Assembly (NCBI GenBank): GCA_017557635.1
Contig: JAFYYH010000004.1
Span: 1 to 64,000 of the forward strand
From: Bacteroidaceae bacterium
GTDB taxonomy: Bacteria > Bacteroidota > Bacteroidia > Bacteroidales > Bacteroidaceae
Length of the DNA stretch: 64,000 nucleotides
Reading direction: 5' to 3'
A model generated the notes under the pieces. The model was not told where the DNA came from. It did no database searches and saw only the letters and a list, made by a program, of their open reading frames with translations. Of this stretch, positions 5,956 through 44,393 are shown piece after piece; position 1 is the stretch's first letter; each line of letters opens with the position of its first letter. Both the position numbers and the translations under genes were made by a program.

Positions 5956-5999
5956 GCGTAACAAGCGCGTTACAAAAACGTTACACAACCGCAACAAGT
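5956..5999. repeat. Four 11-bp direct repeats (GCGTTACAAAA type)
   Basis: Units GCGTAACAAGC (5956), GCGTTACAAAA (5967), ACGTTACACAA (5978) and CCGCAACAAGT (5989) follow each other without gaps. The middle pair matches 17 of 20 bases of the operator-like repeat found in the 36-44 kb island (GCGTTGCAAAA ACGTTGCAA). No promoter with the island's spacing is seen beside it. Confidence 0.6.
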
Positions 6000-36141: not shown

Positions 36142-36223
36142 GCCCAGATGGCGGAATCGGTAGACGCGCTGGTCTCAAACACCAGTGGGGCAACCCGTGC
36201 CGGTTCGACCCCGGCTCTGGGTA
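36142..36223 (+). tRNA. tRNA-Leu (anticodon CAA)
   Basis: Class II tRNA of 82 bases: acceptor GCCCAGA/TCTGGGT (one terminal G-T pair), anticodon stem CTGGT/ACCAG with loop CTCAAAC (CAA), a variable arm, T arm GCCGG TTCGACC CCGGC, discriminator A; no encoded CCA. Confidence 0.92.
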
Positions 36224-36227
36224 CAGG

Positions 36228-36428: not shown

Positions 36429-36959
36429 TTAAGGGCAGACGGGACGGATGTATGATGTGTCAGTATCATCAAGCCATGGTAAATCCAGTCCCATTTTTGC
36501 ATTAAAAATATCATCGATGGTATACAATCCAAGACTTTCATATTCTGAGATATCTATTAGGACTGGTGCTTTTGCTGCATCTTGCACATCACGGGAATCC
36601 AAAGGTGCAAAATCCTCCCAATCTATTGGCGGCAAATCCTTATCATCCTGCATTCTGATTTCAAAGTAGGCCTTATCTATAGGGAGAACTATCTTTTCTT
36701 TACGATAATAGCTGAATTGAATCCTGTCCTTTGGATTAACCAGACTGAATGAAAATTCACCCTTCAGATCAGTATATGCATAAGCTACAGCACGGTCAGC
36801 CGAATCCAGTTCTGTGATATATACTGCCATTAAAGGGCTGACACTATCGGTAACAACGCCGGAAATAGTATCACCTGCCTTTGGCTTACTCTGAGCTAAC
36901 ACCTTGACGGAAGATGTCAGCATCAGCAATAGTGACAAGAGGAATAGAACCTTTTTCAT
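36429..36959 (-). CDS. Secreted protein with a carboxypeptidase-regulatory-like domain
   Basis: 176 aa, signal peptide about 1-22 (ending VLAQ). Residues about 27-105 form a CarboxypepD-regulatory-like (Ig-type) domain: GDTISGVVTDSVSPLMAVYI, DLKGEFSFSLVNPKDRIQFS. This matches, nearly residue for residue, the domain in the 41761-42498 protein (GDIISGTVTDREGPMMMVNI ... EGNFSFRLVNPADRLQVTY). In SusC-type receptors this domain precedes the plug; here there is neither plug nor barrel. The last residues SYIRPVCP resemble the end of FISUMP proteins (SIRPVHP). It follows the DUF4419 gene by 4 bases. Confidence 0.75.
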   Translation of the reverse strand: MKKVLFLLSLLLMLTSSVKVLAQSKPKAGDTISGVVTDSVSPLMAVYITELDSADRAVAYAYTDLKGEFSFSLVNPKDRIQFSYYRKEKIVLPIDKAYFEIRMQDDKDLPPIDWEDFAPLDSRDVQDAAKAPVLIDISEYESLGLYTIDDIFNAKMGLDLPWLDDTDTSYIRPVCP

Positions 36960-36963
36960 ATTC

Positions 36964-38496
36964 TTACAGCTGTACTACGACGGCGGTGGGGAACTGGCTA
37001 AGGATATCAGCCTTCTGATCATCGGTCATAGGAGCCTTTACGGTCAGTTCAATTATACCGAGTTTGCGGCACCACGCACCCAGATCTGACGGTACGGTTA
37101 TGGGGTCAAGTGAGAGAATCTCATAACTCTTGCGGCTGTGATTGGGATACTTGGCAAGCATTGATTCCGGGAAACCTATAAAAATCCATGTATCAACATC
37201 TCCGAAAATCTCATAGATTTCATTTGATGTAATAAATGATTTACCGTCACCGTATCTTTTAAGGAACTCTATTTCAGCCTGTTCCAAGCCGTCCATATTA
37301 AGCCCGAATCCCACTTCTTCACGAACCATCCAACTGATAGATGGTTTAAGAGAGCAGTTTTCACTGTCCAACTCCATGCCGATGAATCCGGCCCAGAGTT
37401 CAAGACTATGATTTATCTCGCGTCCATCGGGCAGATGCTCCACATATCTTACGGGCGCTTTTTTTACCTCCGAGCAGACCTTTGTGTTATGAGATACAAT
37501 CTTAGGAGTACGTGCTATACGGAGGGGACCGTTATACGGATCTTCCTCATAGAACGGGAAGAAAACCGTAAACCATCCGTTGTATGTTGCCGGAACAGGG
37601 CCACCACCGCAACCGCCTGTTCCCGCTCTTGCAGGTGAATACTGCTGTACCATATCCAACCAGAACTTGCGGTTTATCTTTCCTTCCGATGCTTTCACAA
37701 ACTCATCAAGTACGGGCTCCAAATCCTTGCGCCACCACTCCAGATCCAGATCATCCAGCCTTGAAATACGTGAACGTATCTCCTTCCAATCATCGGGCGT
37801 GCCAAGAAGTGTGATGTTGGGAATGCCGCATCCCAGATAGTGAAGTTCATATTTAAAGAACCTCTTTACGCTCTCCATCATGGTAATCTGTGATGCAATG
37901 CGTTCCAGATTGCCTGTAGTAGAGAAATTGCAGACCATAAGGTCCGAGAACTTTGCTTTCATATTCCTGTCGATAGAGTCGCTGAAAGCCGGAATAATCC
38001 AGTTCCAGTCCTCCTCATTCTCCAGCACATCCCTGTATGTCTCTATTTTCAATGTACGCTGACCTTCAAAATCTACCAGTCGGTTGCGCAGATGCTCCGC
38101 GTGCTCATTTATTTGTGTGCCTATTCCCTGGCTAATTAACATCCAGATAATATCTGGTGACAGCACCAGCGAGTAATGCTTGTCATAGGCTGTCAGAAAA
38201 CCTTCAAAGCACGTATTGCGGCTAAAGAATACCATTTTGGAATCTTTTGCGCTGTGTGTTCTGATATTGTAATTGGTTGATGCAATATTGGAGCTATTAA
38301 GCATCTTCTCCCAACACTGTTGGCCCGATATCTCATCCATCAGGTACAGAGGCTCATCCTTATCCTCTATATGGAACTTTACTCCGCCGCTCTCCAGGAA
38401 TTGTACGGTCTCATCGGCCTTAACCTTCTTTTCTCTCTTGGCATACGCCACGCTCACACACATAAGTGAAACGAGAATAAAAACCAGTTTCTTCAT
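36964..38496 (-). CDS. Secreted DUF4419 family protein
   Basis: 510 aa from the ATG at 38494-38496 (MKKLVFILVSLMCVSVAYAK), which gives a clear signal peptide. The upstream frame runs through the promoter and is excluded by the -7 box at 38526-38533. DUF4419 features are HYSLVLSPDIIWMLISQGIGTQINEHAEHLR, VEFDGQRTLKIE-type strands, the Gly-rich GTGGCGGGPVPATYNGWFTVFFPF and GWFTVFFP. The family occurs in bacteria and fungi and has no known activity. First gene of a two-gene unit with the carboxypeptidase-regulatory protein. Confidence 0.85.
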   Translation of the reverse strand: MKKLVFILVSLMCVSVAYAKREKKVKADETVQFLESGGVKFHIEDKDEPLYLMDEISGQQCWEKMLNSSNIASTNYNIRTHSAKDSKMVFFSRNTCFEGFLTAYDKHYSLVLSPDIIWMLISQGIGTQINEHAEHLRNRLVDFEGQRTLKIETYRDVLENEEDWNWIIPAFSDSIDRNMKAKFSDLMVCNFSTTGNLERIASQITMMESVKRFFKYELHYLGCGIPNITLLGTPDDWKEIRSRISRLDDLDLEWWRKDLEPVLDEFVKASEGKINRKFWLDMVQQYSPARAGTGGCGGGPVPATYNGWFTVFFPFYEEDPYNGPLRIARTPKIVSHNTKVCSEVKKAPVRYVEHLPDGREINHSLELWAGFIGMELDSENCSLKPSISWMVREEVGFGLNMDGLEQAEIEFLKRYGDGKSFITSNEIYEIFGDVDTWIFIGFPESMLAKYPNHSRKSYEILSLDPITVPSDLGAWCRKLGIIELTVKAPMTDDQKADILSQFPTAVVVQL

Positions 38497-38525
38497 ATCG
38501 TCGTCGTTTTTGATTTGTTCTGCGA

Positions 38526-38608
38526 CAAAGGTAGAAGCGACGGTTTCGGCCCACAAACAAACAGCGTTGCAAAACTGATGCAAATTTCTTGCAACGTTTT
38601 TGCAACGC
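38526..38608 (-). promoter_or_regulatory. Island promoter 1: -33/-7 with repeat operator (DUF4419 unit)
   Basis: Minus strand: TTGT, 19 bases, TACCTTTG (38526-38533). The operator copy GCGTTGCAAAA CTGATGCAA (plus-strand reading) starts at 38564, 30 bases from the -7 box. A second, perfect copy of the consensus (GCGTTGCAAAA ACGTTGCAA) lies in the opposite direction at 38589-38608, so this promoter has an inverted pair of operators. Confidence 0.8.
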
Positions 38609-38628
38609 CTCTATGAAAAAATGGGGGC

Positions 38629-39183
38629 TTATTTCAGGATCTGCCAATCATCTTCCAGCTTGCCCTCTTTCTTGTATGTGCGGTATTGTTTCTTGGTTAG
38701 AACTTCCAATACGCCATAAAATCCCCTGAAGCCCCAAATAGCCGTTGCCTTAGTATTCTCCACAAACCTCACGGCTTTCAAGCTGCTCTTCCTTACTCCC
38801 AGCAGACCGGCCAGACTCTTACTGTTAAAGAAATCCTCATATACAAATGATTCCAGTTTTGCATCATCAATCTCCCTTATCTCAGAATCAAGCACCACAA
38901 GCGGTCTTGAAACATCGGCTCCGTCAATCTTTTTCATCAGAGCACGTACTGGAGGTCCGTACGCCAGATCACCGGATTGAAATATTATATCAAAACCGGC
39001 AACCTTTCCCTCTAAAGCCTCATCAACCCAAGCATCAACATGAATTGAATCAACATGAACTCTATCACCCGCCTTCTGGGCCGATGCCCGATTGCAAACC
39101 ATTGACAACAATGAGAATGACACAAAGCAAACCACCTTGCACCATCCCTTGCTCAAAAGGATTCTAACTCTGCGGATTTTCAT
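38629..39183 (-). CDS. Secreted plug-domain-like protein without a barrel
   Basis: 184 aa. The N-terminus MKIRRVRILLSKGW is shared with three neighbours and is followed by a hydrophobic signal segment. The remainder reads like the plug domain of a SusC/TonB-dependent receptor: LEGKVAGFDIIFQSGD, PLVVLDSEIREID, then SSLKAVRFVENTKATAIWGF and RGFYGVLEVLTKKQYR, matching the receptor pattern (GKVAGV..., P-L-V-V-D-G, VLKDA-AIYGSRGANGVILVTTKKG). It stops where the barrel would start. Second gene after the 97-aa protein (37-base gap). Function unknown. Confidence 0.75.
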   Translation of the reverse strand: MKIRRVRILLSKGWCKVVCFVSFSLLSMVCNRASAQKAGDRVHVDSIHVDAWVDEALEGKVAGFDIIFQSGDLAYGPPVRALMKKIDGADVSRPLVVLDSEIREIDDAKLESFVYEDFFNSKSLAGLLGVRKSSLKAVRFVENTKATAIWGFRGFYGVLEVLTKKQYRTYKKEGKLEDDWQILK

Positions 39184-39220
39184 AACAGCGTATGCTTTTC
39201 GGTTTACAAATATAATCTTT

Positions 39221-39514
39221 TCATCGTGCCGATGGTGGAATCTGGACTCCGTACATCAGACGGATCTCGGGCGTTTCTACTCCCAGGCCTTGGAAATCTT
39301 CCATACGGATTGTGGATACTTCATCGGCCGATGGTATTTCAACATCATTTGCATCGGGAACTTCAACGTCACCAGCATCAACTGTTTTCTGTTTTGAAAC
39401 CGCTCGGGTCGATGAGCATGAGCAGAGGGCTGAAAACAGCAGGAAAGAGAAGGCGTACACTATGCGGTACCAGCCTTTGGATAGCAGTATTTTGATTGTA
39501 CGTTTATTCATCAC
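39221..39514 (-). CDS. Small lipoprotein sharing the island N-terminus
   Basis: 97 aa. M(M)NKRTIKILLSKGW followed by a lipoprotein signal (FSALCSC). The mature part is Asp/Glu/Val-rich (DAGDVEVPDANDVEIPSADEV) and ends RLMYGVQIPPSAR, which resembles a stretch of the 40937-41764 protein (TELAYGVPRP). It may be a shortened paralogue. First gene after island promoter 2. Confidence 0.65.
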   Translation of the reverse strand: MMNKRTIKILLSKGWYRIVYAFSFLLFSALCSCSSTRAVSKQKTVDAGDVEVPDANDVEIPSADEVSTIRMEDFQGLGVETPEIRLMYGVQIPPSAR

Positions 39515-39537
39515 TAAAACATTTATTCTTTTCGCAA

Positions 39538-39595
39538 CAAAAGTATATTACCCTACATGGATAGCCAAGCAAAGAGCGTTGCAAAAACGTTGCAA
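39538..39595 (-). promoter_or_regulatory. Island promoter 2: -33/-7 with repeat operator
   Basis: Minus strand: TTGG, 19 bases, TACTTTTG (39538-39545). The perfect operator GCGTTGCAAAA ACGTTGCAA (39576-39595, plus-strand reading) starts 30 bases from the -7 box and 7 bases upstream of the -33 box. It drives the 97-aa lipoprotein and plug-like genes. Confidence 0.85.
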
Positions 39596-39780
39596 TGAAA
39601 AGAGAAATCCTTTTAGCCGGAAATGCAGTAAAATCACGAGCATTTCTTTGTAATCAATTCGTATTATTACTACATTTGCGTAACGGCAGTAAGGTGGTGG
39701 TTGTCCCAAATCATACAAACAAGGGAATAGAAAAAGGAACTTATTACAATATCTTGCGTCAGGCAGGAATAAGCAAGTAA
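39595..39780 (+). pseudogene. HicA-like toxin remnant
   Basis: The C-terminal part (NGSKVVVVPNHTNKGIEKGT, then NILRQAGI) is a clear match to the end of HicA mRNA interferases. The first ~33 residues do not look like HicA: the dsRBD-like start and the catalytic Gly-Ser-His motif are absent, replaced by MKREILLAGNAVKSRAFL and a hydrophobic stretch. A good promoter (39647-39678) lies inside this frame, so transcription may begin after the supposed toxin start. Probably a decayed toxin upstream of an intact antitoxin; the length (61 aa) would suit a divergent intact HicA, so I am not certain. Confidence 0.6.
39647..39678 (+). promoter_or_regulatory. Promoter of hicB inside the hicA remnant
   Basis: TTTG (39647-39650), 20 bases, TACATTTG (39671-39678), a close Bacteroidota promoter match about 100 bases before the hicB ATG. 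Confidence 0.55.
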
Positions 39781-40190
39781 TGAATATGGATAAATTACAG
39801 GTAATAGTAGAATACGCAGGTGATAATCTTAGCGCATATATAAACGATCTGCCTATTGTGGCTGTGGGAAAGAACCTGAACGATATTAAGCGTGATATTA
39901 CAGAAGCCATTCAGGTTTATAAGGATTCATGTGTGGAATTGGGCGTAGAGCCATCGGCCCTTGTTACAGGTGACTATGAATTGTCTTTTGTTATTGACGC
40001 CACAACGTTCATAAACTACTACAGCAGCATCTTTACAAAAGCTGCACTTAGCAGAATAACCGGAATAAACGAGAGGCAGTTATGGCATTATGCTGCAGGC
40101 CTGCACAAACCGAGAAAGAGACAACTTGAAAGAATTCAGCGCGGTGTTAAGACCTTGACTGAGGAACTCAACTCGATTTGTTTACTTTAA
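39780..40190 (+). CDS. hicB: HicB-type antitoxin with C-terminal helix-turn-helix
   Basis: 136 aa. Residues 1-75 are the HicB partial RNase-H fold (LQVIVEYAGDNLSAYINDLPIV, VGKNLNDIKRDITEAIQVY). Residues 90-136 (ALSRITGINERQLWHYAAG, KPRKRQLERIQRGVK) form a helix-turn-helix as in DNA-binding HicB proteins. It neutralises HicA and represses its operon. The ATG overlaps the hicA stop by one base, the normal hicAB layout, although the toxin appears damaged. Confidence 0.85.
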   Translation: MNMDKLQVIVEYAGDNLSAYINDLPIVAVGKNLNDIKRDITEAIQVYKDSCVELGVEPSALVTGDYELSFVIDATTFINYYSSIFTKAALSRITGINERQLWHYAAGLHKPRKRQLERIQRGVKTLTEELNSICLL

Positions 40191-40225
40191 AATGGCTTGC
40201 AAAAGGGACAAAACCCAATTGCACA

Positions 40226-40894
40226 TCACGGATGGACGGGACGGATGGAGCGGCCTTCGTTGCGGTAAGAGCCGTTTCCCATCGACGCATCACGACAGAA
40301 CCAGATTCCGTTTGCATGGTCCCAACCACCCATCAGGAAACTACCGCTCTCATGACTTAGTGTGCTTGACCAGTATACACCGTATTCCGGATACTGATGT
40401 AGTGTAGCTACTGCTACCGAGTCATTAAACGCATTGACTGGAAGGAATATCGAGTTGTTCTCATAACCCTCTTTCTTACCCGATACACGGAAACCTTTTA
40501 CATCGTTCTCTGTTGTCCAGGTCCAGTTGCACTCCCGGCGCAGTTCATCCATCTCGGCACTGGTGGGAACCCTCCAGCTACCACCCCACTTGACGTGAGC
40601 CACATCATCCTCAAGATCGAACTGGGTCTTCTGGTCAGTATCGTTGTACTTGTTATAATTTCCTCTGTTGCCATCTACACAGAACTTATACGTAGAGTAA
40701 CTATACTCAGTCTTGGTTTCAGTCTCACCCCAGGCGTATAATCCGCCTATGTCTTCGGGCTTATCGGCCCCGACATTACATGTGGCCCACTTTACACTCA
40801 GGCCCAGATCAACAAACTCATGTTGGGCACATACGGGAATGCAGAGTGACATCAGAATGGATGTCAGTGCAAACAATCGGATATTCTTTCTCAT
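40226..40894 (-). CDS. Secreted FISUMP-domain protein
   Basis: 222 aa with a signal peptide (about 1-23, ending VCAQ). The rest is one FISUMP/DUF1566-like domain: FVDLGLSVKWATCNVGADKPED, YAWGETETK, WGGSWRVPTSAEMDELRREC, YWSSTLSHESGSF and the terminal NEGRSIRPVHP. Such domains are widespread on the surface of Bacteroidota and Fibrobacter and have a C-type-lectin-like fold; the ligand is unknown. Last gene of the 42498-40226 unit, 42 bases after the preceding stop. Confidence 0.88.
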   Translation of the reverse strand: MRKNIRLFALTSILMSLCIPVCAQHEFVDLGLSVKWATCNVGADKPEDIGGLYAWGETETKTEYSYSTYKFCVDGNRGNYNKYNDTDQKTQFDLEDDVAHVKWGGSWRVPTSAEMDELRRECNWTWTTENDVKGFRVSGKKEGYENNSIFLPVNAFNDSVAVATLHQYPEYGVYWSSTLSHESGSFLMGGWDHANGIWFCRDASMGNGSYRNEGRSIRPVHP

Positions 40895-40936
40895 AATGCT
40901 GTTTTTTGGTTTTCTGTCATATAAACTGAGTTTTGC

Positions 40937-41764
40937 CTAAAATACGTCCAAGTTTTTGTAACTGTTGTCAAGACGGCCTTCCCGGCGGAGCTGTCGGTAA
41001 TACTTTTTTGTTACCACCTCAATTGTTGTAGCCTCAGATTGGGGACCTATCAGTCTTACCGCTTTGAGTTTACTCTTCTTTACGCCTACCAGTCCTGCCA
41101 GGCTTTCAATATCCATAGGGGCGTTCTCATTAATGAATGACTTCTTTTGCTCATAACTTAGGTTTACCCTGGTGCCGTCAAGGAATACTGTAAGTTCCGT
41201 ATTTTTGTTCAGGTATTTGCTCCAGGGCTCCTCAATCTGCGGCCTGGGAACGCCGTATGCCAGCTCCGTAAATTCATTCATATCGATGGTTTCCAGAAAA
41301 TCCGAGGCCTCGCGCAGAGGTATTGCAAGACCATTAACTATCTGAACTCCTCCAGTCTCTACCGAGTCCTGTTCTTCTTCCATCGTTATCACAAAAACGT
41401 TACCGTTAATCCTGCACTCGGCCATGTCATAACCCACATATGAAACCTGAATGCGGTTTTGCGGATCAACGACCTTAAGGGAAAAATGGCCCTCTCTGTC
41501 AGTGACAGCATGTGATACGATACGGTCATTTGAATCACGCTCCACCACATTGGTAAACAACAGCGGCCCATCAGAATCATGAACCCAACCGTTTATGGTA
41601 TCGCCGGCCTGAGGTTTGACGCCCGATATGACAACCTTGGAACGGAATGATTCGTCAAGCGTGCCGGCATGTGCAGACAGGAAAGAAAGCACCAGGAAAG
41701 ACACACTGTAAAGAGCGTATGTCCATCCTCGTGATATCTTTATCCTTACTGTCCTGAACTTCAT
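40937..41764 (-). CDS. Secreted protein with regulatory-like domain and degenerate plug
   Basis: 275 aa. N-terminus MKFRTVRIKISRGW plus signal segment. Residues about 50-130 are a carboxypeptidase-regulatory-like domain (KPQAGDTINGWVHDSDGPLL ... EGHFSLKVVDPQNRIQVSYVGYDMAE). A plug-like second half ends SKLKAVRLIGPQSEATTIEV, VTKKYYRQLRREGRLDNSY. It lacks the Gly-rich GxxG of the plug end that the neighbours keep, and its C-terminus matches that of the 38629-39183 protein (YRTYKKEGKLEDDW). No barrel. Its ATG overlaps the upstream stop by 4 bases. Confidence 0.75.
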   Translation of the reverse strand: MKFRTVRIKISRGWTYALYSVSFLVLSFLSAHAGTLDESFRSKVVISGVKPQAGDTINGWVHDSDGPLLFTNVVERDSNDRIVSHAVTDREGHFSLKVVDPQNRIQVSYVGYDMAECRINGNVFVITMEEEQDSVETGGVQIVNGLAIPLREASDFLETIDMNEFTELAYGVPRPQIEEPWSKYLNKNTELTVFLDGTRVNLSYEQKKSFINENAPMDIESLAGLVGVKKSKLKAVRLIGPQSEATTIEVVTKKYYRQLRREGRLDNSYKNLDVF

Positions 41765-42498
41765 TTCCGGCCTTTCTTGGTCTGCACCTCAATCGCGCCA
41801 TTAAAGCCATGGACTCCCCATAGCGCCATAGCTGCTTGACGTTTTAAATAACTGACACTCTTTATTTTTCTGGCTTTAACTCCAAAAAGACGTGCCAGTT
41901 CTTCCTTGGAATAATCAGCTCTTGTAATGTCAATGCCCGCCCACGCTGTTGAATCGGCGGTTATTATTTTGTCGTCCAGGACAAGCAGAGGTCTGGCAAT
42001 AATATCACCTGCATTATATACAATATCCAGACCTGCGGAAGGCCCATAAGCTTGAGGATTGTCCTGAACGTCCGTCATAAGGGCAAGTTCTTCAAACTCA
42101 TCCCAATTGATGGCCGGTTCTATCTTTATATCAAAGTATGTACTGTTAATCAATGTATCAACAGTTGTGTATCCTGCATATGTAACCTGTAATCTGTCGG
42201 CTGGATTGACAAGACGGAAAGAGAAATTACCCTCCATATCCGTAATGGAATGGGCAACGATACGGTTCTTTGAATCACGCTCTGTGATATTGACCATCAT
42301 CATAGGCCCCTCGCGGTCTGTAACCGTGCCCGATATAATATCACCGGCCTTAATACTGTCCTGTACAGCCGCAGCTGTAACATTCTGTCCCTTGGCCGAT
42401 GCAAAGCTGCAAAACATTGAAAACAGAGAGTATGATACGCACCATACCGCAACATACCACCCTTTTGCCAACAAAACCTTAATTCTGCGTATTTTCAT
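41761..42498 (-). CDS. Secreted protein with regulatory-like domain and plug domain, no barrel
   Basis: 245 aa. N-terminus MKIRRIKVLLAKGW plus signal segment (ending FASA). Residues about 48-125 are a carboxypeptidase-regulatory-like domain (GDIISGTVTDREGPMMMVNI). The second half is plug-like (AGLDIVYNAGDIIARPLLVLDDKI ... KSVSYLKRQAAMALWGVHGF-NGAIEVQTKKGRK) and ends with the TKKG that in SusC receptors leads into the beta-barrel. It is therefore the complete N-terminal extension and plug of such a receptor as a free protein. First gene after island promoter 3, and the best preserved of the set. Confidence 0.78.
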   Translation of the reverse strand: MKIRRIKVLLAKGWYVAVWCVSYSLFSMFCSFASAKGQNVTAAAVQDSIKAGDIISGTVTDREGPMMMVNITERDSKNRIVAHSITDMEGNFSFRLVNPADRLQVTYAGYTTVDTLINSTYFDIKIEPAINWDEFEELALMTDVQDNPQAYGPSAGLDIVYNAGDIIARPLLVLDDKIITADSTAWAGIDITRADYSKEELARLFGVKARKIKSVSYLKRQAAMALWGVHGFNGAIEVQTKKGRK

Positions 42499-42521
42499 AA
42501 CTCAATACGTTTATCTGCTGA

Positions 42522-42579
42522 CAAAAGTAGCTGAGTAATCTACAAACACCAAGGATTAGGCGTTGCAAAAACGTTGCAA
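42522..42579 (-). promoter_or_regulatory. Island promoter 3: -33/-7 with repeat operator
   Basis: Minus strand: TTGG, 19 bases, TACTTTTG (42522-42529). The perfect operator GCGTTGCAAAA ACGTTGCAA (42560-42579) starts 30 bases from the -7 box. It drives the three-gene unit 42498-40226. Confidence 0.85.
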
Positions 42580-42608
42580 ATGACACAAAGGAATCTGATC
42601 GTTTTGTG

Positions 42609-43562
42609 TCATTCGTAGGTCCAGATGGTTGTCTGCCAAGGTCTTCGGAATATTATGTAGTCATCGGGACTATAACCGAATTCTTTGATTGGGACTCTTG
42701 AGCGGAAATCATATTTCCAAAGGTGCACACTGTGTTTACGAAACTTGCCGTCTTTCATTATATAGGTGACACTCTTGGTCCTTAATCCGTTCTTATACTT
42801 TTCCTTGTATTTCCAGCTTGGCTCTTTATGATAGCTTCCATCCTTGTACTGCTTGAGGCTCTCAATCCTTATCACCTTATTCCCTATGTATTTATACGTA
42901 TCTGTCAGGTAATTGGGATAGATGCTGTCAGTCTCATCGGGATCAAAAGATTCCCTGCTTAATATCCGGCCCTTTCTGTCATATCTGTAAACGGACTTGC
43001 CGGAGATGACAACAGGCAGTGAGTCAAGTTGATAATAAGTTGTGGTTACGGACTGCAAACCATCATCTGAATATTCAATTATGTTGCCTCCTCTTTGAAT
43101 CTGATTGTTATCGTTTACTGTTTCATACCAATCATTTGAAGGACGTCCCTGGGCATCGAAAGTATACCAGTCATGATAACCCTCTGACTGCACTTCTACG
43201 ATCCTTCCTTTTTCATCTCTTTTTCTGTAAGATTTCTCTTTCCAGAGGCCCGCCACAAGATCATAAGACCTTATGCTTCCGTCGCTGCTCTTTACAGTCC
43301 TATGTATACTGTTGGTTGTTTCTATTGTATCTGTCGTCTGGCCGTTATGTCTGATTTCATACTCTGTCCATGTGGAATCCGGAGCATTATTCATAAGAGT
43401 AATACGGGTAACCAAAGCAAGCTCATCACCTGAATAATGATACTCTTCACGCTCATATAGCGCATCGTCATGATACTCAACCCTACTCAACAGCTTACCG
43501 CGAGTGCTGCTGCACGCTGCAAACAACAAGGAAAAGGATATTACAGCTACTATCTTTTTCAT
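42609..43562 (-). CDS. Lipoprotein with RHS-like repeats
   Basis: 317 aa from the ATG at 43560-43562 (MKKIVAVISFSLLFAACSS), giving a lipobox FAA-C. The -7 box at 43583-43590 excludes the longer start at 43613. The body has repeated short strands like RDEKGRIVEVQSEG, FDAQGRPSNDW and YDRKGRILSRESF, i.e. RHS/YD-like repeats as in the 7834-8604 lipoprotein. Possibly a surface ligand-binding protein. Monocistronic, under island promoter 4. Confidence 0.75.
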   Translation of the reverse strand: MKKIVAVISFSLLFAACSSTRGKLLSRVEYHDDALYEREEYHYSGDELALVTRITLMNNAPDSTWTEYEIRHNGQTTDTIETTNSIHRTVKSSDGSIRSYDLVAGLWKEKSYRKRDEKGRIVEVQSEGYHDWYTFDAQGRPSNDWYETVNDNNQIQRGGNIIEYSDDGLQSVTTTYYQLDSLPVVISGKSVYRYDRKGRILSRESFDPDETDSIYPNYLTDTYKYIGNKVIRIESLKQYKDGSYHKEPSWKYKEKYKNGLRTKSVTYIMKDGKFRKHSVHLWKYDFRSRVPIKEFGYSPDDYIIFRRPWQTTIWTYE

Positions 43563-43582
43563 CAGACCAGTATTATCTGCTG

Positions 43583-43640
43583 CAAAACTATACGTATTAA
43601 TAAGTTTACACAAGGATTAGGCGCTGCAATATCGTTGCAA
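43583..43640 (-). promoter_or_regulatory. Island promoter 4: -33/-7 with repeat operator
   Basis: Minus strand: TTGT, 19 bases, TAGTTTTG (43583-43590). The operator copy GCGCTGCAATA TCGTTGCAA (43621-43640) has 3 mismatches to the consensus and begins 30 bases from the -7 box. The flanking CAAGGATTAG is shared with island promoter 3. Confidence 0.82.
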
Positions 43641-43696
43641 GGTGTGGATATATAGAAAAGTTCACTCAAAAAGTTCCGGGTATTAAAAATAATACC

Positions 43697-43735: not shown

Positions 43736-43981
43736 ATGCCAGAAGTATTCAGATTTTTCGGTTATTCTTTCTTTTTCTATAGTAGAGAACACGAACCCCT
43801 TCATATACATGTAGAAGGGAACGGAGGAATAGCCAAGTTCGAGTGGAATGAAACAGAGTTTATTCTTAAAGAGCAACAAGGCATAAAAGTTAGTGATTTA
43901 AAGAAGATTGAAAAAGTAATAAACGATAACGCTGATTTAATTGTACTTCGGTGGAATCATTACTTCAACAAAGAGGACTGA
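43736..43981 (+). CDS. DUF4160 family protein
   Basis: 81 aa, normal length. Signature MPEVFRFFGYSFFFYSREHEP and HIHVEGNGGIAKFEW. DUF4160 genes are found next to DUF2442 genes, as here, and the pair has been suggested to be a toxin-antitoxin-like module; no activity can be read from the sequence. One base separates it from the next gene. Confidence 0.88.
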   Translation: MPEVFRFFGYSFFFYSREHEPLHIHVEGNGGIAKFEWNETEFILKEQQGIKVSDLKKIEKVINDNADLIVLRWNHYFNKED

Positions 43982-43982
43982 G

Positions 43983-44393
43983 ATGAAAGAAATAAATGAA
44001 ATATGGTTTGATTCTGATTACATTTACGTACGTGATGAAAAGGGACAGGAGTACCGCCAATCTTTGCTGTGGTACCCCATGCTGCGCAATGCAACTGATC
44101 AAGAACGGCTTCAATATACTATAGGATTAGACGGCATCCATTGGAGAGCACTTGATGAAGACATCAGTTTTGAAAGTTTTGAATACGACGATGCTGATCC
44201 TTCACCGCTGCAGCGTTTCTTTCTAACTCACAAAGAGATAAATGTAGCAGAATTTGCACGTTCAGCCGGAATAAACGCCACCCTACTCCGCAACTATATC
44301 AACGGCTTCAAGAAACCCTCCGTTGAACGTGAAAAGGAGATTCTCCAGCACATCCACGAATTAGGACAAGAACTGCTAAAGGTTTCCTTCTGA
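43983..44393 (+). CDS. DUF2442 protein with C-terminal helix-turn-helix
   Basis: 136 aa from the ATG at 43983 (MKEINEIWFDSDYIYV). The N-terminal ~75 residues are DUF2442 (SLLWYPMLRNATDQERLQY-IGLDGIHWRALDEDISFE). The C-terminal part (INVAEFARSAGINATLLRNY, then INGFKKPSVEREKEIL) is a helix-turn-helix closely resembling that of HicB proteins. Likely DNA-binding and self-regulating partner of DUF4160. Confidence 0.85.
   Translation: MKEINEIWFDSDYIYVRDEKGQEYRQSLLWYPMLRNATDQERLQYTIGLDGIHWRALDEDISFESFEYDDADPSPLQRFFLTHKEINVAEFARSAGINATLLRNYINGFKKPSVEREKEILQHIHELGQELLKVSF

Follow-up and report, generated by a model that had tools for sequence, protein, structure and literature searches.

We analyzed 64 kb at the start of contig C21 in a Bacteroidaceae genome (2.44 Mb in 24 contigs; the 64-kb stretch is referred to as the window here), in which four promoters of an island of genes for probably secreted proteins carry copies of one direct-repeat motif, TTGCAACGnnnTTGCAACG. 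Taken together with the other genomes of the genus, the data make it probable that this motif serves as a genus-wide operator of secreted-protein genes and that an insertion sequence (IS) of the IS3 family prefers it as its target. The finding is thus larger than first noted, comprising a genus-wide class of operator-promoters and an IS that homes to it; the link to the IS was invisible to the original prediction, which was made from the window, because the window alone is without it.

A probable operator-promoter with fixed geometry recurs across the genus

In the orientation of transcription, TTGCAACGnnnTTGCAACG lies upstream of all four promoters of the island (positions 36429 to 43640, minus strand), and in all four a TTG starts 8 bp and a TAnnTTTG box 31 bp past the end of the motif. 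Counting mismatches over 16 fixed positions of the 19-mer, the operators at 39577-39595 and 42561-42579 are perfect; with their promoters (39538-39595 and 42522-42579) they are predicted to drive the genes at 39221-39511 and 38629-39183 and those at 41761-42498, 40937-41764, and 40226-40894, respectively. The operator at 43622-43640 (with promoter, 43583-43640) has one mismatch and is predicted to drive 42609-43562, and the one at 38565-38583 (TTGCATCAGTTTTGCAACG; with promoter, 38526-38583) has two and is predicted to drive 36967-38496 and 36429-36959. A further perfect copy, without a promoter behind it, stands in inverted orientation on the plus strand at 38589-38607, forming an inverted pair with the copy at 38565-38583. 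The original prediction had named these five copies and claimed a fixed spacing of the motif to the -33 and -7 elements; every copy was found in its place (0, 0, 0 [inverted], 1, and 2 mismatches), and the geometry was the same in all four promoters. At up to three mismatches, the window holds 9 matches, including two near position 5957 and two overlapping registers of the named copies, versus 0.67 expected, a number never reached in 100 shuffles.

To follow the motif beyond the window, we used a composite pattern (operator-N31-TAnnTTTG, up to three mismatches) with the reversed pattern as a control, and a genus set of 37 genomes, mostly fragmented drafts from gut metagenome assemblies (genomes, contigs, and loci are cited by G, C, and L numbers). 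The window's own genome contains 11 composite operator-promoters, 4 in the window and 7 elsewhere, versus 0 for the control. Across the genus, 201 (summed rows) were found in 29 of 37 genomes, versus 2 for the control; some of the 201 are sites with the box at 32 bp, which match through mismatches in the box. The motif is therefore not limited to one island, as had been assumed, given that 7 of the 11 copies in its own genome lie outside it. Random placement with no link to promoters was found neither genome-wide nor genus-wide, the distance to the promoter being fixed.

Outside the genus, the operator-promoter was rare. The exact composite, a strict test that relaxed versions would escape, occurred in 1 of 395 genomes of a class-wide sample, namely, the window's own genome; this was the sole member of the genus in the sample, and the six genomes from four other genera of the family were all without the composite. 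The 19-mer with one mismatch was present in 29 of 37 genomes of the genus, versus one match each in 5 of 24 genomes from other families of the order.

The anatomy of the operator was assessed on 68 distinct sites from fetched loci (up to two mismatches, or three with a promoter box). Of these, 54 have TAnnTTTG 31 or 32 bp away and one has it at 29 bp; among the 13 sites without a box are partner copies of inverted pairs, overlapping registers, and matches probably due to chance. Among 61 distinct sites selected by promoter or IS end, 53 have CTTG or GTTG at bases 8 to 11. When grouped at a 75% identity cut over the 45 bp downstream of the operator, the 61 sites fell into 45 clusters, showing that the spacers are largely unrelated; the first base past the motif is C in 44 of the 45 cluster representatives. 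As for the targets, which had been claimed to be secreted proteins, a hydrophobic N-terminal decamer was found in 56 of 58 first downstream genes versus 73 of 135 control open reading frames, which agrees with that claim as far as a heuristic without a signal-peptide predictor goes and with controls that also count membrane proteins and genes further along in the same units. The target families comprise DUF4419, CarboxypepD_reg-like, and FISUMP-like proteins and weak matches to RHS or Lcl_C, mostly under curated cutoffs except for DUF4419.

Direct repeats one helical turn apart, placed close upstream of the core promoter, are a common layout for activators of the OmpR/PhoB kind. The motif consists of two 11-bp direct repeats upstream of the -33 element, as expected for a regulon under OmpR/PhoB-type control. 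OmpR/PhoB-type operators such as the PhoB box share with it the 11-bp-period direct repeats close upstream of the -35/-33 element, but their sequence is unlike that of the operator of this genus. Judged from sequence, there is good support for a genus-specific operator that controls a secreted-protein regulon. TTGCAACGnnnTTGCAACG(C) would be an activator operator of two half-sites one helical turn apart, its end lying 8 bp before the -33 TTG and 31 to 32 bp before the -7 TAnnTTTG, and it may be bound by a winged-helix protein, as the 11-bp period suggests; a single OmpR/PhoB-type activator that would switch the units on together, as in the original prediction, is a candidate model.

Operators also occur in inverted pairs, which we observed at four loci (38565-38607 of the window, C18:155290-155332, L085 [G017:C69], and L084 [G009:C67]), with starts 24 or 21 bp apart. 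The 24-bp offset of the window pair recurs at C18:155290/155314 and in G017:C69. Promoters on both sides of the pair were seen only in G009 among these four loci, and the window pair could form a long hairpin.

An IS3-family element inserts next to the operator

In the window's genome, contigs C13, C19, C2, and C7 open with an identical sequence of 139 to 140 bp, and the operator follows two bases further. This shared start is the right end of an IS3-like element, of which a full 1,515-bp copy closes contig C1. Several features place the element in the IS3 family: OrfB has an integrase core (rve; PF00665, E=1.6e-18; PF13683, E=1.8e-20); a predicted short orfA (977-1396 of L089) overlaps orfB (1330-2403) in the -1 frame; and the terminal inverted repeats are of the TG...CA type (TGTCTTGTCCTAAAAAAAGTTGACTCG and TGTGTTTTCCTAAAAAAGGTTGACTCG), with 3-bp target duplications. 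A helix-turn-helix match in OrfA (HTH_23, E=4.9e-4) is under the curated cutoff.

The left ends in this genome are flanked by TTA, TTT, ATT, and AAT and the right ends by TTT, AAT, TTA, and ATT, so that four left and four right ends pair one to one, consistent with four insertions that each duplicated 3 bp. Every time, the operator begins at the third duplicated base, and the orientation is identical. The window's own contig terminates in one of these left ends, ∼24 kb past the window. At the window's four operators we found no clear remnant of the IS, and no inverted repeat of the IS was present anywhere in the window. Upstream of the operator at 43622, positions 43641 to 43660 match the tail of the IS at 11 of 17 bases at the exact offset, which may be a decayed remnant or chance.

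To survey the IS across the 37 genomes of the genus, we searched with the last 65 nucleotides of its right end, which are free of operator sequence. This yielded 44 right ends in 16 genomes, of which 2 are at contig edges and 42 have a readable flank. An operator (up to 3 mismatches in 16) lies exactly 2 bp past the IS end in 31 of these 42, representing 25 distinct flanks from 12 genomes; the count includes one end (G020:C18b) lengthened by three bases by hand and is otherwise 30. All 31 have a -7 box (up to one mismatch) at 31 or 32 bp. With the same search, 16 of the 29 operator-bearing genomes gave an IS end, versus 0 of the 8 operator-less ones (p ∼0.005, phylogeny ignored). The consensus is much alike for operators with and without the IS. 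In 11 of 20 inspected loci, the IS end is a remnant of 18 to 54 bp followed upstream by unrelated sequence, suggesting that the IS has probably long been present in the genus and is decaying in place. At G007:C76 and G005:C20, the operators next to the IS ends are degenerate, and no promoter stands at the usual distance from them.

The junctions show that the IS enters at (N)NT^TGCAAC..., with a duplication of 3 bp; in the 31 exact cases, the 3' end of its transposase gene faces the operator and the promoter is left in place. We infer that the transposase itself reads the DNA sequence of the operator; this is favored by the single-base precision, by the hits at degenerate, promoter-less sites, and by the precedent of IS1397 and ISKpn1 discussed below. 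The payoff for the IS may be a safe haven, in the form of many dispersed noncoding sites at which insertion does little harm. This is plausible, since an insertion 2 bp upstream keeps both operator and promoter.

Several observations weigh against this interpretation. Eleven of the 42 IS ends fail the operator criterion. Two of these are the ends at degenerate operators (G007:C76 and G005:C20), and 7, including a divergent relative on contig C4 of the window's genome, are without a recognizable operator. One end (G007:C111b) lies inside another copy of the IS, another (G029:C13) is a truncated IS end fused to the operator, and a left end outside the 65-nucleotide survey (G009:C30) stands 6 bp from an oppositely oriented operator. 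Some of the shared flanks are inherited and represent no separate events, given that several ends have been reduced to short remnants. On the operator side, the bare 19-mer is only moderately enriched in the window's genome (14 matches versus 8 for the reversed control at up to two mismatches), and over the genus it gives 211 versus 45 at one mismatch. The control matches may partly come from operators, since copies whose spacer is rich in T contain GCAACGTT again; it is the composite with the promoter (11 versus 0), not the bare motif, that separates operators from background. Finally, searches of the 37 genomes for OmpR-type and LytTR proteins returned no protein whose distribution settles the identity of the activator.

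Alternative explanations and known systems

A different route to the same target would be guidance of the IS by the regulator, with the transposase tethered to the operator-bound activator in the manner of yeast Ty elements. Ty1 and Ty3 land at promoters of RNA polymerase III, guided by bound factors; the likeness lies in a mobile element that settles beside a promoter without breaking it, but Ty1 and Ty3 are yeast retrotransposons, whereas the element studied here is a bacterial IS. Tethering would fit the restriction of the operator-promoter to the genus, as sampled, and the occurrence of the IS end solely in operator-bearing species. It would also fit the behavior of related ISs, which insert elsewhere. 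For these, we took 66 loci from a named genome collection and scanned 44 for ends, including L097 and L109 of G007 from the window's genus. Thirteen of the 44 have TGTC ends with a matching 3-bp duplication (transposases 51 to 68% identical); their flanks are varied and none is an operator, the modest count reflecting that the remaining loci have no clear end pair or no duplication. A 61%-identical IS in the genus member G016 likewise inserts at varied sites. Tethering is unlikely, though we give it some weight, since the insertion point is fixed to a single base and the two degenerate sites were entered although they lack the usual promoter. Furthermore, IS1397 and ISKpn1, two IS3-family elements with a recurrent intergenic target motif, are reported to owe their choice of target to the transposases themselves (as cited in PMC1525189).

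Direct reading of the operator by the transposase would have relatives. IS1397 and ISKpn1 share with our element the IS3 family and a single recurrent intergenic target motif (PMC1525189), but their target is a palindrome (repetitive extragenic palindrome [REP]), whereas our element targets an operator made of direct repeats, whose distance to the promoters of one regulon is fixed. ISPsy8, ISPa11, ISPpu9, ISPpu10, ISRm22, and ISRm19, from several families, are described there as REP specific; they are alike in inserting specifically at repeated extragenic sequences, but these targets are not promoter operators (PMC1525189). Given that its target is a direct repeat at a promoter and no REP, the element studied here works like the REP-targeting ISs without being one. 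In a narrow literature search, in which nearly all terms were required together, we found no regulon operator as the target of an IS and no description of this operator; specificity of ISs for repeated motifs is already known. A bacterial IS that reads a regulon operator to the base would represent natural promoter-proximal safe-haven targeting in bacteria, and each insertion would also mark a member of the regulon.

The motif itself could be read as an extension of the promoter for a particular sigma factor rather than as an operator, and the near-invariant distance to TAnnTTTG (31 or 32 bp) speaks for this. We nevertheless consider it improbable, since the tandem, like half-sites, which are separated by one helical turn and do not reach the -33 element, resemble an activator site, and since the core promoter (TTG/TAnnTTTG) is the ordinary promoter of Bacteroidota. 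Inheritance of the operator copies through duplication of one promoter and gene family is very improbable: even though several targets are paralogous (DUF4419 and CarboxypepD_reg-like proteins), the 45 clusters with less than 75% identity among the 61 sites and the differing downstream families contrast with the conserved operator and spacing. Random insertion with survival only of copies just upstream of operators would account for sites that leave their promoters intact, but it is hardly credible, because selection cannot hold the junction at a single base and in a single orientation in 31 of 42 ends when nearby upstream bases should be equally harmless.

Arrays of operator-gene units and possible mobile sequences

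Operator-gene units often stand in codirectional series, as in the window, an exception being the divergent pair of G009:C67. In G020:C18 and G026:C26, remnants of IS ends lie between successive units, and a DUF4419 unit with the same downstream IS-end junction precedes different operator-genes in the two. These observations suggest that the IS may help to build the arrays. A more far-reaching idea, which we regard as speculative and rather unlikely, is that the operator doubles as switch and docking site for the IS, whose insertions and deletions, always behind the same base, help to assemble and reshuffle the arrays in an integron-like fashion. The IS would then home to the operator, perhaps via the bound activator, and new surface-protein genes would join the regulon at once. 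In 19 of the 20 fetched regions (L230 was left out), we found no cassette with two like IS ends and a matching duplication. A 1,872-bp segment with equal flanking AAA was rejected as a cassette, given that its ends are of different subtypes and the left one belongs to a separate short element.

Two short elements with two IS ends resemble miniature inverted-repeat transposable elements: one of ∼320 bp at 10869-11188 of L222 (G026:C26), which adjoins an operator, and one of ∼60 bp at 7654-7714 of L238 (G011:C20), which does not. In addition, a repeat of ∼75 to 130 bp ending in ..LCRLAAKYKAVK* (or a close variant) halts exactly at the operator in several genomes (L088, 1793 and 10152; L226, 2175; L234, 4885; L235, 6076 and 12853) and adjoins an IS end in G007 and G005. 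It is perhaps the tail of another mobile gene.

Candidate regulators

To look for the activator, we searched the 37 genomes for the Trans_reg_C (OmpR-type) and LytTR families and then for two candidate proteins. The window's genome encodes two Trans_reg_C proteins. The first, an OmpR-type protein of ∼238 amino acids, has a counterpart (235 to 246 amino acids; grouped by length and score alone) in 32 of 37 genomes; at least 7 of the 8 operator-less genomes are among them. The second, of 654 amino acids (G000:C20:235491-237452; L203:6492-8453), is a Na/Pi cotransporter joined to a PhoU domain and, at its C terminus, to an OmpR-type winged helix, so that the membrane transporter carries a DNA-binding domain of its own. 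Full-length relatives (71 to 100% identical) occur in 20 of 37 genomes, the window's own included, and a fragmentary copy is found in G010. The fusion was not found in the operator-bearing genomes G013, G022, and G031 (84, 83, and 90% complete), which carry 8, 12, and 4 operator-promoters, respectively, and it is therefore unlikely to be the sole activator.

A membrane LytTR protein reached at least 60% identity in 25 genomes, all of them among the 29 with operators; in the other four of these (G004, G016, G018, and G032) and in the 8 operator-less genomes, it is either less similar or absent. This codistribution can equally be explained by species relatedness. The operator itself provides a sequence handle on an uncharacterized surface-protein regulon, whose members can be listed from sequence in any genome of the genus, and the regulator could be obtained by using one DNA fragment as bait.

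Genes of the island and its edges

The original prediction had assigned eight secreted-protein genes to four units driven by these promoters. The eight genes (36429 to 43562) do form four codirectional units; a HicA-type gene (PF07927, E=1.5e-6) and a small partner gene without a Pfam match (39595-40190, plus strand) run the opposite way inside the island, diverging from its units. All genes of the units are on the minus strand. The first unit consists of a DUF4419 protein of 510 amino acids with a hydrophobic N terminus (36967-38496; PF14388, E=7.9e-67) and a probably secreted CarboxypepD_reg-like protein (36429-36959; E=3.7e-4, under the curated cutoff). The next opens with a small, probably secreted protein without a Pfam match (39221-39511), followed by a probably secreted protein (38629-39183) that resembles the TonB plug segment of SusC, with no barrel (8ypt, E=6.6e-5; TIGR04056, E=0.0024, far under the cutoff). 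The third unit encodes two probably secreted CarboxypepD_reg-like proteins (41761-42498 and 40937-41764) and a probably secreted protein with a weak Lcl_C match (40226-40894), all under curated cutoffs. The last is a putative lipoprotein, its N terminus judged by eye, with a weak RHS-repeat match (42609-43562; E=0.0085, under the cutoff).

The proteins encoded at 38629-39183 and 40937-42498 are probably secreted lookalikes of the N-terminal module of SusC (plug segment and CarboxypepD_reg-like domain) without a β-barrel. Genes for DUF4160 and DUF2442 proteins adjoin the island at 43736-44393, and a tRNA-Leu(caa) gene (36142-36224) lies immediately outside its low-coordinate edge.

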